Source: Onchidella celtica (taxonomy: Eukaryota > Mollusca > Gastropoda > Systellommatophora > Onchidiidae). Taken from it: DNA of 64,000 bases. The position numbers and the translations under genes are program-made. This document shows, piece after piece, positions 28,501-63,531 of this stretch (its first letter is position 1; each line of letters opens with the position of its first letter). Under the pieces are notes generated by a model. It was not told where the DNA came from, made no database searches, and worked only from the letters and a program-made list of their open reading frames with translations. The stretch is taken from assembly GCA_963931925.1 (NCBI GenBank), contig OZ007567.1:87830998-87894997 (forward strand). The letters run 5' to 3'.

Positions 28501-29863
28501 TGAAAAGTCAGTGAGATGTTCACCTGGTCGGCACTTGGTACCGTGTCATAAAGCTGTTGAGATAGTCATCATAATAGCTAGAAGGCGAACATGTAAATAA
28601 CTATATAAAATGTCATGAGTTTGTTTTGCATAATGTCTAAATTTTTGACAACAAATTATGTGAACACATCCATTCCTGACAAAATTTGGTCTCAAATATC
28701 ATTTGTTTACCATTTTTTGAGCCGCAACAATAGAGATATATGTTGGTCATGTAGAATCGAAAACTATGATCATAAATTCATTATTTATGTTTTCTATTTT
28801 TGTCCATATTTCCACTCATAGGTTCATCAGATGTTGCTTGGAATAAGATTTCCTTAGGGTTCGTAGGATTTCCTACATCAAGCCGATGGTGGCATGATAA
28901 CGTAACCAGTGGATCTACATAAGGAATAATATCATTCCTATGAGTAAATTTGAAATCAATCCTACCAGTCGGATTGACTTAGGCCGATAGGCTTGCTGGC
29001 TGGTTTCTACTGCACATACACTTTGTAATTCAAAGAGCTTTGGTTGACAGTTCCTTTTTAGCTTTGTAAATGTTCAATGCACAGAAATTTATCGATATGA
29101 TCACTGCGGCAAATTTTTTTTCCCTTAGTACAGAAGGCTAAGCGTTTGTTAAAAATTTGTACAATAAAAAACCTTTTATGACACATTTATAGATACATAA
29201 TTTTATAACAGTCAATGAAACAATTTGTTTTTAAATTTGAAGAAATTACCCTTAATTTCAACATCCTCGTCATGTTAATAAACCATTAAAATTTAAATTC
29301 CCTACAAAATCATAGGAACTGTATGCTGTAGACAAAGGAAGCCCTAAATGTGAAGTGCTACATGAGCAAAACCGTGCCCTGAACACTTACAGAAACAGTG
29401 AATTCTATCAAAACATTTGGACCTGCTCCACCATTTCTTGTTGCCGTCATTCCCATGTAAGTAATGGAAGGTTGATCCACTGTGTATGATGGCAATGTAC
29501 CTGAGACAGCTCCATTGTTTACCTTTGCCGTGCCCTGAGGAAGAACATCGATCAAGACCGACAATAATAAGAGTGAGTTTAAATTATAATCAGCATTATA
29601 AATAAATTAAACTATTACGAACTGTTAATCGAAGCAAACCTTAGTTTCCGAAAATCAAAAATAATGTGTTATTTTAACAAGATGTCAAAGTGAAATAAAT
29701 TCACACAGCAATTATAAGTACTCACAGTCAGTGCAAGTTGTGTATATGTGGGTTTAGAATCTGGGGTAAATTCACACACATCTGTCTGACCAAAAGTTGA
29801 ACTGGTCAGTACTGACAAAAACAGAATTGCCACAATGGTCTGTAGATTATCTTTGTGGCTCAT
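1503..29863 (-). CDS. EVC2: EVC2 (limbin) ortholog, 26 coding exons, C-terminus outside window
   Basis: Type I membrane protein of the EvC complex, which in vertebrates sits near the base of the primary cilium and carries Hedgehog signals from Smoothened. Visible order: signal peptide (residues 1-25), extracellular/luminal part (26-215), one membrane span (216-240) followed by five arginines (242-246), then a long charged coiled-coil tail rich in E, K, Q, R to residue 1041. The exons join in phase with consensus GT-AG junctions and no stop. Human EVC2 has about 1308 residues, so roughly 250 should lie left of the window; the last visible exon ends in a good donor. The head-to-head EVC gene supports the name. 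Start chosen at the ATG at 29863, just before the signal peptide, with A at -3. I named it from architecture and neighbour, not from an alignment search; the coiled coil alone would not be diagnostic. Confidence 0.88.
2151..2320 (-). CDS. EVC2: EVC2 coding exon 25
   Basis: Residues 956-1012 ([20 protein letters not shown] onward). Donor GTATGT; the split codon AA|G gives lysine with the next exon. Confidence 0.88.
2668..2927. mobile_element. MITE-like element with ~38-bp inverted repeats
   Basis: Left arm ATCGTCACTATGCTGCAAGA and onward through CTCCCGTAACTAACATTT recurs reverse-complemented at the right with about one change. Roughly 260 bp, no coding capacity, target duplication not clear. 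Located in the intron between EVC2 exons 24 and 25. Confidence 0.65.
3355..3408 (-). CDS. EVC2: EVC2 coding exon 24
   Basis: Residues 938-955, 18 codons (EQDRLNQKLDTTRAKQEK), the smallest exon seen in this gene. Donor GTATGT. Confidence 0.85.
3703..3828 (-). CDS. EVC2: EVC2 coding exon 23
   Basis: Residues 896-937, including LNARGILSTPECERILDMHK, a break in the coiled coil. Donor GTAGTC, acceptor TTATTTCAG. Confidence 0.86.
4127..5019 (-). mobile_element. piggyBac-like element, internally deleted
   Basis: Ends are TTAA plus a shared CTCAYTGA terminal repeat followed by GC-rich subterminal sequence. An 82-codon minus-strand reading frame (4460-4708) begins MASKRKKTNIFQLFEDTIDE, with an acidic patch like the N-terminus of piggyBac transposases; the catalytic domain is absent. 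The GC-rich ends contrast with the intron around them. Confidence 0.6.
4460..4708 (-). pseudogene. piggyBac-type transposase N-terminal remnant
   Basis: 82 codons starting MASKRKKTNIFQLFEDTIDE, then an acidic and serine-rich stretch (NSDSDSRSSPPSTSD) and a basic lysine/arginine part. The D-rich catalytic core expected of a 500-600 residue transposase is missing, so this is a leftover of an internal deletion. The match is by character, not by alignment. Confidence 0.45.
5163..5264 (-). CDS. EVC2: EVC2 coding exon 22
   Basis: Residues 862-895 (IHVEMTKERVLALKDQESRL). Donor GTATAT, phase 0 to 0. Confidence 0.86.
5583..5729 (-). CDS. EVC2: EVC2 coding exon 21
   Basis: Residues 813-861 with an acidic patch (NNGEEDDEE). 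Of two close acceptors, TTTATCCACAG at 5730 fits the reading phase. Donor GTGGAG. Confidence 0.83.
5966..6076 (+). mobile_element. 111-bp MITE, copy A
   Basis: Starts TGTTGTTAGGGGA and ends TCCCCTAAAAACA (one change from a perfect inverted repeat). It is the same family and exactly the same length as the inverse copy at 43603-43713. Confidence 0.65.
6219..6261. repeat. Perfect 20-bp palindrome with 3-base loop
   Basis: ACAATATGACATTCAAGGCA, three bases, then its exact reverse complement. In the intron between EVC2 exons 20 and 21. The loop is too short for a normal microRNA precursor. Confidence 0.8.
6548..6656 (-). CDS. EVC2: EVC2 coding exon 20
   Basis: Residues 776-812 (LTLNKLRQKRMLEEKIAQKR). 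Donor GTGAGC; acceptor AATGGCAG lacks a strong pyrimidine tract. Confidence 0.84.
7030..7122 (-). CDS. EVC2: EVC2 coding exon 19
   Basis: Residues 745-776, KLLCSQISISEAERDRILKE then HEKQMVKLEN; split codons at both ends. Donor GTGAGG. Confidence 0.86.
7601..7698 (-). CDS. EVC2: EVC2 coding exon 18
   Basis: Residues 713-745, very charged helix (EELARRKREWEERRAKERKE). Donor GTAAGT, acceptor TCTTACAG. Confidence 0.88.
8168..9303. mobile_element. piggyBac-like element with CCCT termini, non-autonomous
   Basis: TTAA on both sides; termini TTAACCCTCGTCCTGCG and, read inward from the right, TTAACCCTAGTCCTGCG (one mismatch). GTGGCCTCCCGCAGGAC occurs twice near the right end as a subterminal repeat (about 9191 and 9279). 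TTAACCCT is the canonical piggyBac end. No transposase frame. Intron between EVC2 exons 17 and 18. Confidence 0.75.
9682..9791 (-). CDS. EVC2: EVC2 coding exon 17
   Basis: Residues 676-712 (VADEVIDKMLKAHEKTMNDL). Donor GTCTGA, weak but in phase. Confidence 0.85.
10230..10421 (-). CDS. EVC2: EVC2 coding exon 16
   Basis: Residues 612-676, 64 codons of coiled coil starting PISYVDGLIKLKSRHRRELN. Donor GTGGGT, acceptor ACATTTCAG. Confidence 0.88.
10726..10798 (-). CDS. EVC2: EVC2 coding exon 15
   Basis: Residues 588-612 (split codon), LSRHASELQEYLSKNKAQQT. Donor GTAAGC, acceptor CATTCTCAG. Confidence 0.85.
11347..11509 (-). CDS. EVC2: EVC2 coding exon 14
   Basis: Residues 533-587, MKRALSSEEMEEYMNQARAD onward. 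Donor GTATTA was preferred because it keeps phase 0 with the next exon. Confidence 0.83.
11944..12023 (-). CDS. EVC2: EVC2 coding exon 13
   Basis: Residues 507-533 (split codon), including EIQEDDHVESLNGMASIQIK. Donor GTTAGT, acceptor GCTTTTCAG. Confidence 0.85.
12421..12645 (-). CDS. EVC2: EVC2 coding exon 12
   Basis: Residues 432-506, the longest coding exon seen in this gene. Donor GTACGT gives phase 0, matching the next exon. Coiled coil ends in LEEKLARRRALALAS. Confidence 0.87.
12901..13011 (-). CDS. EVC2: EVC2 coding exon 11
   Basis: Residues 395-431, glutamine- and glutamate-rich coiled coil. Donor GTAAAC, acceptor CTTTGTAG. Confidence 0.87.
13751..13831 (-). CDS. EVC2: EVC2 coding exon 10
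   Basis: Residues 368-394 (EKLGDLLKKHKEQRHGAILV), phase 0 to 0, donor GTGAGT, acceptor TTTTACAG. Confidence 0.85.
14050..14715 (+). mobile_element. Non-autonomous Helitron, copy 1 with 196-bp tandem duplication
   Basis: Begins TCTATACTATATATATTTGT after A and ends CTAG before T, the usual Helitron A|T insertion without target duplication. A GC hairpin (CCCGGGCAGGGCCGGG) stands just before the terminal CTAG. The 3' part is duplicated in tandem: 14313-14508 and 14509 to about 14704. Removing one unit gives 470 bp, the exact length of copy 2. No Rep/helicase gene. Confidence 0.85.
14313..14704 (+). repeat. Tandem 196-bp duplication inside Helitron
   Basis: Two nearly identical units starting CCCGTGCGCAAATCATRCTG; each contains the 3' hairpin, but only the second is followed by ACCTCAGCTAG, the end of the element. 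Confidence 0.85.
14960..15049 (-). CDS. EVC2: EVC2 coding exon 9
   Basis: Residues 338-367, start of the continuous coiled coil (NQLKELDRKLDTEYKKELET). Donor GTAAGT. Confidence 0.87.
16310..17028. mobile_element. piggyBac-like TTAA element with AGATCT clusters
   Basis: TTAACCCTTTGAACCC at both ends as an inverted repeat, TTAA target. The interior (about 16724-16931) holds five blocks of tandem TCTAGA/AGATCT hexamer repeats. No coding capacity. Intron between EVC2 exons 8 and 9. Confidence 0.75.
16724..16931. repeat. Clustered (TCTAGA)n hexamer blocks
   Basis: Five short runs of the palindromic hexamer spaced 15-60 bp apart inside the TTAA element, a possible set of subterminal binding sites or a local expansion. 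Confidence 0.7.
17068..17221 (-). CDS. EVC2: EVC2 coding exon 8
   Basis: Residues 286-337, less charged than the rest of the tail (LDILSTIHVDTDLETEQIDA). Donor GTAAAT, acceptor CTTTACAG. Confidence 0.87.
17222..18488 (-). other. EVC2: EVC2 intron without recognised feature
   Basis: AT-rich; nothing beyond chance open frames was seen. The same is true of the intervals 9792-10229, 10799-11346, 11510-11943, 12024-12420, 13012-13750 and 15050-16309. Confidence 0.6.
18489..18577 (-). CDS. EVC2: EVC2 coding exon 7
   Basis: Residues 257-286 (split codon), basic (DKRLRERGRKIVMDAKAAMR). Donor GTAAGC, acceptor TTATCAG. Confidence 0.87.
18963..19004. repeat. Tandem 21-bp duplication
   Basis: CCAAAATTAAGCACTTTTGA occurs twice in direct repeat within the intron between EVC2 exons 6 and 7. 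Confidence 0.75.
19244..19387 (-). CDS. EVC2: EVC2 coding exon 6: transmembrane span
   Basis: Residues 209-256. About 25 uninterrupted hydrophobic residues (216-240) followed by FTRRRRR, a strong stop-transfer signal that places the C-terminal tail in the cytoplasm. Donor GTAAGA. Confidence 0.9.
19846..19914 (-). CDS. EVC2: EVC2 coding exon 5
   Basis: Residues 186-208, 23 codons, phase 0 to 0, reading AGTTYGIIMPDICLVRVVGI; juxtamembrane. Acceptor CCTTTAG, donor GTAAGT. Confidence 0.82.
20470..20568. repeat. (CT)n microsatellite, imperfect
   Basis: About 100 bp of CTCT interrupted by CCCTCCCTC and CCATC. Open frames across it are compositional artefacts. Confidence 0.9.
20782..21005 (-). pseudogene. 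Possible exon with RAG1-N-terminus-like zinc motif
   Basis: A minus-strand frame with an acceptor-like TTTGTAG in front and a GTGTGC donor-like end. It reads FRSELLIYFAIDITLDDSRH then SAKICQKCIVRMSK. The IDI...H-x4-C-x2-C spacing is like the zinc-binding segment in the N-terminal part of RAG1 (FRIDVKAD...HPTEFCHNC). It could be a remnant of a RAG1-N-terminus-bearing mollusc transposon, a zinc-finger gene fragment, or chance. It is not part of the phase-consistent EVC2 model. Confidence 0.35.
21285..21372. repeat. Mixed (CT)n / (CA)n tract
   Basis: Alternating CTCTCTCT and CACACACA runs in the long EVC2 intron. Confidence 0.85.
22237..22882 (-). CDS. LINE C-terminal domain after the nested insertion
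   Basis: Continues the reverse transcriptase (YLGVTLDRKLTWNQHINNTC, RPSLEYGCSVWDP, LERVQRRAARFV) to RMWNNLPAEVQTLSSATTFD, a typical CR1-group C-terminus. The 11-bp target duplication shows the frame was continuous before the insertion. Confidence 0.85.
22894..23528 (-). mobile_element. RTE-type LINE fragment nested in the CR1-group LINE
   Basis: 635 bp, 5' truncated, flanked by the 11-bp direct repeat TAGTCTGAGGT (22883-22893 and 23529-23539). It encodes about 205 codons of the end of a reverse transcriptase protein: LLYGCETW, GRRRWRWIGHTLRRPG, KRSRGRPRGTWRRA. The stop lies just before an (ATG)n tail, and such a very short 3' UTR with a trinucleotide tail is typical of the RTE clade. Same orientation as its host element. 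Confidence 0.88.
23528..24430 (-). CDS. LINE reverse transcriptase, frame after the frameshift
   Basis: Reverse transcriptase domain with NKATGPDGIPAKLL, PVSLTSISCKLLEHIL, HGFRKHRSCESQL, LLDFSKAFDKVHH (first catalytic D), GVPQGTVMGPLLFLVYINDM and FADDSLLYR (catalytic DD). All catalytic residues are present. The frame runs upstream through 24431-24576 without a start. It ends at the nested insertion; the protein resumes at about 22882. Confidence 0.88.
   Translation of the reverse strand: MDEIFVTENGVLKLLENLNENKATGPDGIPAKLLKLKLCAKEIAPVYTLLFRASIEQGKIPEDWKKANVVPIFKKGNRASPENYRPVSLTSISCKLLEHILHTSIMKHLEKHSVLTHVQHGFRKHRSCESQLVTTCNDFVNNLNNNRQTDTILLDFSKAFDKVHHASLLTKLNHYGVRNSTLKWIKSFLENRTQIVVVDGKSSNPAAVLSGVPQGTVMGPLLFLVYINDMPSKISPGTKLRLFADDSLLYRTINSKEDTEILQKDLDSLQKWERDWRMEFHPNKCQVLRISNKKHNITSD
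24577..26469 (-). CDS. LINE protein, N-terminal part: 2A, PHD finger, endonuclease
   Basis: 630 codons. Hydrophobic segment 112-123 runs straight into GDVELNPGP (124-132). PHD finger C4HC3: C139/C142, C155/C158, H163/C166, C186/C189. APE endonuclease about 262-480 with E292, D399-x-N401 (GGDFNLPD) and D470-H471 (GDHD) in place, plus YRPPGSD. Translation may start at residue 1, or at M110 (26142), which would give a 23-residue signal-type 2A leader. The frame ends at 24577 because of a frameshift; the same protein continues in another frame. Confidence 0.85.
   Translation of the reverse strand: MATACAGGKSTSCAIIKSEIVRSLLLMSISLLFTVLVYRSRPELYSLGCRWDIRSRSKHEANYNNWKFSVVNSPKSRTSLINTWSVLGQKSRYRSRTSLKFRLNCSSNTMNISLVLFLLLSLSGDVELNPGPQTRFPPCPVCLKKCTWKTRAIACDSCDRWYHIDCMGINSVMYETLGNSSAAWECIQCGMPNFSSSLFTDFQLNLDCSRSRSHNCFDILQHLDTNKSNTEIPIFEPKYSSTPHPKSKKKEPAKEKTTFRTQVINFQSIWNKKEELSSFLNETKPDVIIGTETWLNENIKTSEISINDDYEIYRNDRKKRRGGGVLIAVKKNLVSEKIPSEEAGETVLCKIRVQGKPPLVVGAVYRPPGSDLETSKNICNELLSAYQKNKKATIWIGGDFNLPDINWEEGNVKSCQNLREINDLFLDSAADIGLEQAVKETTRGDALLDLFFTNFPNLTRQIKILPGLGDHDIVQIDSELKPFKNRPIRRQIYLWNQTDENNLKREAATFGTFFMKYHSSKTDANKLWDCIKLNLNMIMENVPTKMTSTKIHQPWINTLTKRLVRKKYKWFKKIKQCNSERMKNKYLEIKRLTQKECRKAHNNYIHEMISDSSDNSKKLWRYVKSKIKKT
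26074..26100 (-). other. 2A ribosome-skipping motif
   Basis: GDVELNPGP matches the D-V/I-E-x-N-P-G-P consensus exactly. Skipping would release everything before the last proline. It is preceded by MNISLVLFLLLSLS, a signal-peptide-like run, the arrangement known from 2A sequences that double as export signals in some invertebrate proteins and LINEs. Confidence 0.9.
27218..27291 (-). CDS. EVC2: EVC2 coding exon 4
   Basis: Residues 161-185, including PAGPGGMNLPQGQNAYF. Donor GTAAGT, acceptor TTTGGCAG. The following intron (7.3 kb) holds the LINE insertion. Confidence 0.82.
28241..28321. repeat. Tandem ~40-bp duplication
   Basis: Two imperfect units of ACTTTTAAGTATAYTTRAAA followed by TGACYGCTCTTTCATCAA next to EVC2 exon 3. 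Confidence 0.75.
28355..28553 (-). CDS. EVC2: EVC2 coding exon 3
   Basis: Residues 95-161 (last codon split 1+2). Extracellular. Two possible N-glycosylation sites: NISL and NSSS. Donor GTAGGT was chosen over the overlapping GTATTG because only it keeps the phase with the next exon. Confidence 0.82.
29391..29534 (-). CDS. EVC2: EVC2 coding exon 2
   Basis: Residues 47-94, phase 0 to 0, donor GTAAGT, acceptor CTTCCTCAG. Extracellular, beta-rich looking, one NGG/NNG-rich turn region, no cysteine. Confidence 0.85.
29726..29863 (-). CDS. EVC2: EVC2 coding exon 1: signal peptide
   Basis: Residues 1-46. MSHKDNLQTIVAILFLSVLT begins a classic signal peptide; likely cleavage near FG-QTDVC (residue 25). 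Donor GTGAGT. The exon extends upstream as 5' UTR to an acceptor at about 29895 (TTATCTAG) or 29888. Confidence 0.85.

Positions 29864-63531: not shown

Follow-up and report, generated by a model that had tools for sequence, protein, structure and literature searches.

The window analysed here is a 64,000-bp stretch (G000:C1:87830998-87894997) of a 1.14-Gb genome, and it carries two divergent multi-exon genes that we identify as EVC2 and EVC. EVC2 is transcribed leftwards from an ATG at 29863 and EVC rightwards from an ATG at 31142, just where the original prediction had placed a divergent pair with start codons about 1.3 kb apart, and the exon chains leave the window at both ends. Only 1,278 bp separate the two start codons. 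Our reading, to which we give a probability of about 0.9, is that the window contains a molluscan EVC2/EVC locus, in which two anciently duplicated genes with partner products are arranged divergently around a short spacer that probably holds promoters for both. The features and their coordinates are collected in the table below.

The genes were modelled with a gene finder that uses simple splice-and-codon scoring, with joins corrected by hand, and all of the EVC2 and EVC splice sites are predicted from the DNA sequence. The EVC2 model has 28 exons encoding 1,293 amino acids and runs leftwards beyond the window to G000:C1:87826860; that of EVC has 20 exons encoding 895 amino acids and ends at 66511, to the right of the window. 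Chain scores for the two genes are 288.6 and 319.6, compared with 28.6 for the best of 40 wrong-strand starts in the same DNA, and the reported mean implies that 27 of these 40 gave no chain. Because exons of EVC2 and EVC themselves went into the starting codon table and several joins were hand-placed, the scores and the wrong-strand comparison are partly circular; independent checks are provided by the Pfam match of the minus-strand protein and by the alignment of EVC with EVC2 relative to shuffled sequences. The start of EVC2 exon 2 at 29534 is fixed by its AG acceptor. An initial set of models extended into retrotransposon frames and was replaced, and candidate EVC2 exons at 29780-29863, 27274-27324, 18046-18123 and 11314-11509, the last EVC2 exon of an intermediate model, and EVC exon 50567-50775 of the intermediate model were dropped or replaced.

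The minus-strand protein, searched as a 1,114-residue model without the last exon, matches the Pfam family EVC2_like (PF12297) over residues 276-552 with 51.7 bits (cut-off 25; E 8.5e-14), and the sole other family listed, DUF6626, falls below cut-off (E 0.74). A search of the genome with the PF12297 profile, read exon by exon, returned nothing, whereas the spliced protein does match; this is perhaps because single exons were read. From hydropathy, the protein is predicted to begin with a signal peptide, followed by some 180 residues of ectodomain, a single transmembrane helix and a long charged coiled-coil tail. The signal-like hydrophobic stretch lies at residues 7-25 and the membrane helix at the peak spanning residues 209-227 (mean 2.66), into which a third peak (1.24, from residue 192) merges. 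The layout is that given for Evc2 by Blair et al. 2011 (PMC3052239). An approximate, partial human EVC2 sequence matches the minus-strand protein with a phmmer E-value of 1.7e-23 and a Smith-Waterman z of 25.2. Searches of the PDB gave one chance-level match only (E 0.24) for EVC2 residues 1-235 and none for EVC residues 1-315.

The plus-strand protein has a different predicted topology, with a single hydrophobic peak at residues 37-55 (hydropathy 2.52), no ectodomain and a charged tail, consistent with an N-terminal signal anchor and fitting the Evc layout in Blair et al. 2011 (PMC3052239). It is also related to its neighbour. EVC residues 131-878 align collinearly with EVC2 residues 271-1087 with a score of 436 and 184 identities in 732 aligned positions, whereas 1,000 shuffles that preserve heptad position and local composition have a mean score of 193.7 (standard deviation 16.6) and a maximum of 262, and a reversed-protein control scores 231. 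An earlier EVC model scored 379, a value reached by none of 300 shuffles in each of two shuffle kinds, and BLASTP with earlier models aligned the C-terminal part at E 6e-8 (58/249 identical). As judged by alignment, EVC and EVC2 are ancient duplicates, in agreement with Blair et al. 2011 (PMC3052239), who traced the pair to an early animal duplication with a PSI-BLAST E of 6e-14. The original prediction had argued that, outside tandem duplicates, genes rarely stay so tightly linked; since EVC and EVC2 are ancient duplicates, that remark was wrong and the argument from rarity does not apply.

Several results weigh against these assignments. An earlier, 858-residue model of the plus-strand protein matched no Pfam family, and an approximate human EVC sequence is only weakly similar to it, with a Smith-Waterman score of 162 (z 5.8) and a single 41-residue blastp piece at E 0.010. 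The positions of introns also fail to match between the two genes: 3 of 17 lie within three columns and share phase, with 1.27 expected (P 0.12), and none of the 17 coincides within one column, an earlier model giving a like outcome. Shared intron positions were accordingly set aside as additional evidence of duplication, their coincidence being no greater than chance. Taken together with a residue composition in which D, E, K, R or Q account for 46-47% of positions beyond residue 250 in both proteins, the intron positions are compatible with a similarity that reflects merely common coiled-coil composition between genes that are not duplicates, and the title of a 2003 paper reportedly termed the two 'nonhomologous'. 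We regard this as the least credible of the alternatives, given that no composition- and heptad-keeping shuffle equals the observed score and that the published PSI-BLAST comparison links the two families (PMC3052239).

Nearly as improbable is that the plus-strand gene encodes another coiled-coil membrane protein that adjoins EVC2 by chance. The lack of a Pfam match and the weak similarity to human EVC would fit this. The same human EVC query gave no phmmer match to either protein and a Smith-Waterman score of 117 with the minus-strand protein (z 3.1; blastp E 1.4), and the human EVC2 query gave z 4.4 with the plus-strand protein. Because the Pfam and human EVC similarities are weak or lacking, the EVC label depends mainly on the predicted topology, the location of the gene and its homology to EVC2. 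This homology, collinear over 732 positions and including the C-terminal segment, argues against a chance neighbour, together with the EVC-type N-terminal anchor and the presence of EVC beside EVC2 in the same orientation in the published genome of the snail Lottia (PMC3052239). The gene identities and divergent layout of the original prediction are supported, EVC2 by its match to PF12297, and EVC by its layout, its position and its alignment with EVC2.

Searches of the genome for further copies, which score only the best candidates, returned the locus itself in every case: 8 of 8 matches for EVC residues 1-387, 5 of 5 for the C-terminal 207 residues of EVC, and 12 of 12 for residues 1-522 of the modelled EVC2. 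The analysis thus shows no second copy in the genome of the parts searched, just as it shows both predicted exon chains, their orientation and the EVC/EVC2 homology. The haemocyanin beta-sandwich domain PF14830, which we take to be typical of molluscs, has 33 matches on another contig (C7), in three clusters at about 0.27-0.37, 2.51-2.55 and 59.31-59.41 Mb, which suggests several multi-unit haemocyanin genes. The animal is a probable mollusc because of these 33 matches, and the description of it as an invertebrate is borne out.

The spacer is single-copy, with one match in a DNA search of the genome, which is itself. Two hand-chosen intron controls of equal length (one per gene, and therefore few) carry dispersed repeats, with 42 and 53 listed matches, self included, 40 having been scored in each from 8,563 and 2,902 first-look candidates. 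The abundant repeat pieces in these introns are at about 36340-36717 and 15300-15636, respectively. A noncoding first exon of EVC2 is possible because a splice donor at 30518 is accompanied by an acceptor just ahead of the EVC2 start codon; such an exon may lie downstream of a TATA-like sequence. The donor is the only one scoring more than 3 on the minus strand between 29700 and 31141. However, GTAAGT has a density of 0.28 per kb on that strand, so that a single occurrence within the spacer carries no significance, and the noncoding exon is therefore a weak prediction. If real, this putative 5' untranslated region (5'UTR) exon would have its end 623 bp away from the start codon of EVC and would bring the EVC2 start to within about 0.6 kb of that codon; divergent transcription starts less than about 1 kb apart would be expected of a bidirectional promoter pair. 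On the EVC side, a short upstream open reading frame (ATG GCG GTT GGG TAA) is present at 30983-30997 (+).

Two candidate promoter features of the spacer were rejected. Sites resembling the RFX X-box are no better than in shuffled spacers, the best match having two mismatches and 63 of 100 shuffled spacers having a match with one or none. The CpG observed/expected ratio is 0.87 at 30501-31000 compared with 0.57 over 124 kb, only a mild rise for a CpG island.

Table. Predicted features of the EVC2/EVC window. Coordinates are window positions; LTR, long terminal repeat.
Feature	Coordinates	Strand	Basis
EVC2 exons 1-2, signal peptide and start of ectodomain	29726-29863, 29391-29534	-	Open frames, hydrophobic stretch, splice sites
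EVC2 ectodomain exons 3-4	28355-28553, 27218-27324	-	Phase-compatible open frames; hand-placed; outside the Pfam match
EVC2 transmembrane exon	19244..19387	-	Hydropathy peak, splice sites present; hand-placed
EVC2 cytoplasmic coiled-coil exons, 20 in the window and 3 to its left	1503..18577	-	PF12297 match, gene model
Putative shared promoter region (spacer)	29864..31141		Genome DNA search, intron controls
Possible EVC2 5'UTR intron	29889..30518	-	Last exon base 30518 (TTG/GTAAGT); acceptor 29895 or 29889
TATA-like sequence, near-palindromic, upstream of possible EVC2 first exon	30637..30648	both-strand match	Motif scan
Inverted CCAAT, ATGGCGG and AGGAAGT upstream of EVC	30921..31005	+	Motif scan, consensus matches only, without chance level
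EVC exon 1, start and N-terminal signal anchor	31142..31342	+	Open frame, donor, hydropathy
Cytoplasmic coiled-coil exons 2-19 of EVC, with exon 20 in the right flank (to 66511)	34172..63531	+	Gene model
PHD finger and endonuclease frame	24577-26502	-	Non-LTR retrotransposon in EVC2 intron
Reverse transcriptase frame	23528-24592	-	Non-LTR retrotransposon in EVC2 intron
DUF6451 frame	22914-23552	-	Non-LTR retrotransposon in EVC2 intron

The literature shows that the arrangement is an ordinary one, known since 2011. According to Blair et al. 2011 (PMC3052239), amphioxus, sea urchin, the gastropod Lottia gigantea and Nematostella each have both EVC and EVC2, whereas Drosophila and C. elegans have neither; a head-to-head arrangement is seen in the first three as well as in vertebrates, and the linkage was not found in the assembly of the sea anemone Nematostella. 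The pair described here is like the vertebrate, amphioxus, sea urchin and Lottia pairs in having genes arranged 5'-to-5' across a short spacer, the same topologies and an origin as ancient duplicates, and the distance between translation starts, 2.86 kb in human and 1.75 kb in mouse, is 1.28 kb here (PMC3052239). There is no substantive difference from the published pairs; what is provided here is another genome, a set of exon models and a possible intron in the 5'UTR of EVC2. The proposal that the linkage is older than the protostome-deuterostome split agrees with its occurrence in these four lineages, but is not new because Blair et al. 2011 had already reported the arrangement (PMC3052239). 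A literature search, largely outside subscription journals, found nothing further on the EVC/EVC2 arrangement beyond that paper among the papers listed. In a 2022 study of two annelids, EVC2 was found in transcriptomes and EVC was not (PMC9695228). Should this hold for the genomes as well, uncoupling of the two partners would be possible in spiralians.

In mouse, Evc and Evc2 form a complex, each requires the other to reach its place in the cilium, and both promote Hedgehog signalling; a bidirectional promoter shared by the two genes, maintaining their stoichiometry or serving a single pathway, was suggested in 2011 (PMC3052239). By analogy, the short spacer of the probable mollusc probably holds promoters of both genes, from which the partner subunits would be transcribed together, and the products would form a complex at the ciliary base and membrane that acts positively in Hedgehog signalling, at the level of Smoothened or below it. 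We infer the complex, its ciliary location, the pathway and the co-regulation in the mollusc from other animals. A comparable situation is that of the collagen IV genes, which are divergent duplicates in head-to-head pairs whose products co-assemble and which have stayed adjacent over long evolutionary times, although they encode extracellular matrix proteins unrelated in sequence to EVC and EVC2.

An alternative reading is that the pair is real but its linkage is simply left over from a tandem duplication in inverted orientation, in genomes that rearrange slowly, with a separate promoter for each gene and no selection to hold them together. As the genes are ancient duplicates, their adjacency would require no special explanation. 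In addition, the linkage was not seen in the sea anemone assembly (PMC3052239), the X-box-like matches in the spacer are no better than in shuffled spacers, and its CpG content is only mildly raised. Conversely, both linkage and orientation are preserved in vertebrates, amphioxus, sea urchin and Lottia (PMC3052239) as well as here, and the spacer is single-copy whereas the two intron controls carry repeats. We consider a selectively neutral relic rather unlikely, though far from negligible. Within the favoured reading of a divergent pair with promoters for both genes in the spacer, a stronger version, in which EVC and EVC2 have never been separated since their inverted duplication and both are served by a single compact promoter, a few hundred bases long (at about 30.5-31.0 kb), is tentative and likewise somewhat improbable.

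Among the other features of the window, the introns of both genes contain mobile or repeated sequences. The non-LTR retrotransposon frames in an EVC2 intron span 22237-26502 (-), and an RNase H fragment (PF00075, E 4e-7) at 48804-49445 (-), antisense to EVC within one of its introns, is probably also from a retrotransposon. One element is present as inverted copies in introns of EVC2 (14049-14703) and EVC (47696-48158); the aligned pieces are 93-98% alike, and the first copy contains a 196-bp tandem duplication (99%). A fold-back structure at 44583-45009 has inverted arms of 105 nt (82%) and 83 nt (99%). An EVC2 intron also contains an open frame of 108 amino acids (20695-21021, -) with a CxxC motif (KICQKC) and no Pfam match. 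Rfam and tRNA scans of the window found nothing.

Beyond the pair itself, CRMP1 is a conserved neighbour of EVC in vertebrates, and a genome search with the amidohydrolase profile PF01979 for a neighbour of this type gave 4 matches, none of them on C1, the contig of the pair; the search, exon by exon and with only the best candidates scored, is a weak one. Two adjoining amidohydrolase matches at G000:C34:16514-17454 are in long open frames (526 and 269 amino acids), unlike the short exon-like amidohydrolase frames on C7 and C12, and are perhaps bacterial contamination.

The locus extends the published record of divergent partner genes in several bilaterians by one more genome, probably that of a mollusc, and its additions to that work are the exon models, the single-copy spacer and the weakly predicted noncoding first exon of EVC2. 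It also corrects the view of EVC and EVC2 as unrelated genes, since they are duplicates that became partners. The single-copy 1.3-kb spacer is a handy construct for asking whether one promoter drives both genes; if it does, and the genes have never been separated, the EVC/EVC2 promoter would be among the oldest bidirectional promoters traceable in animals.

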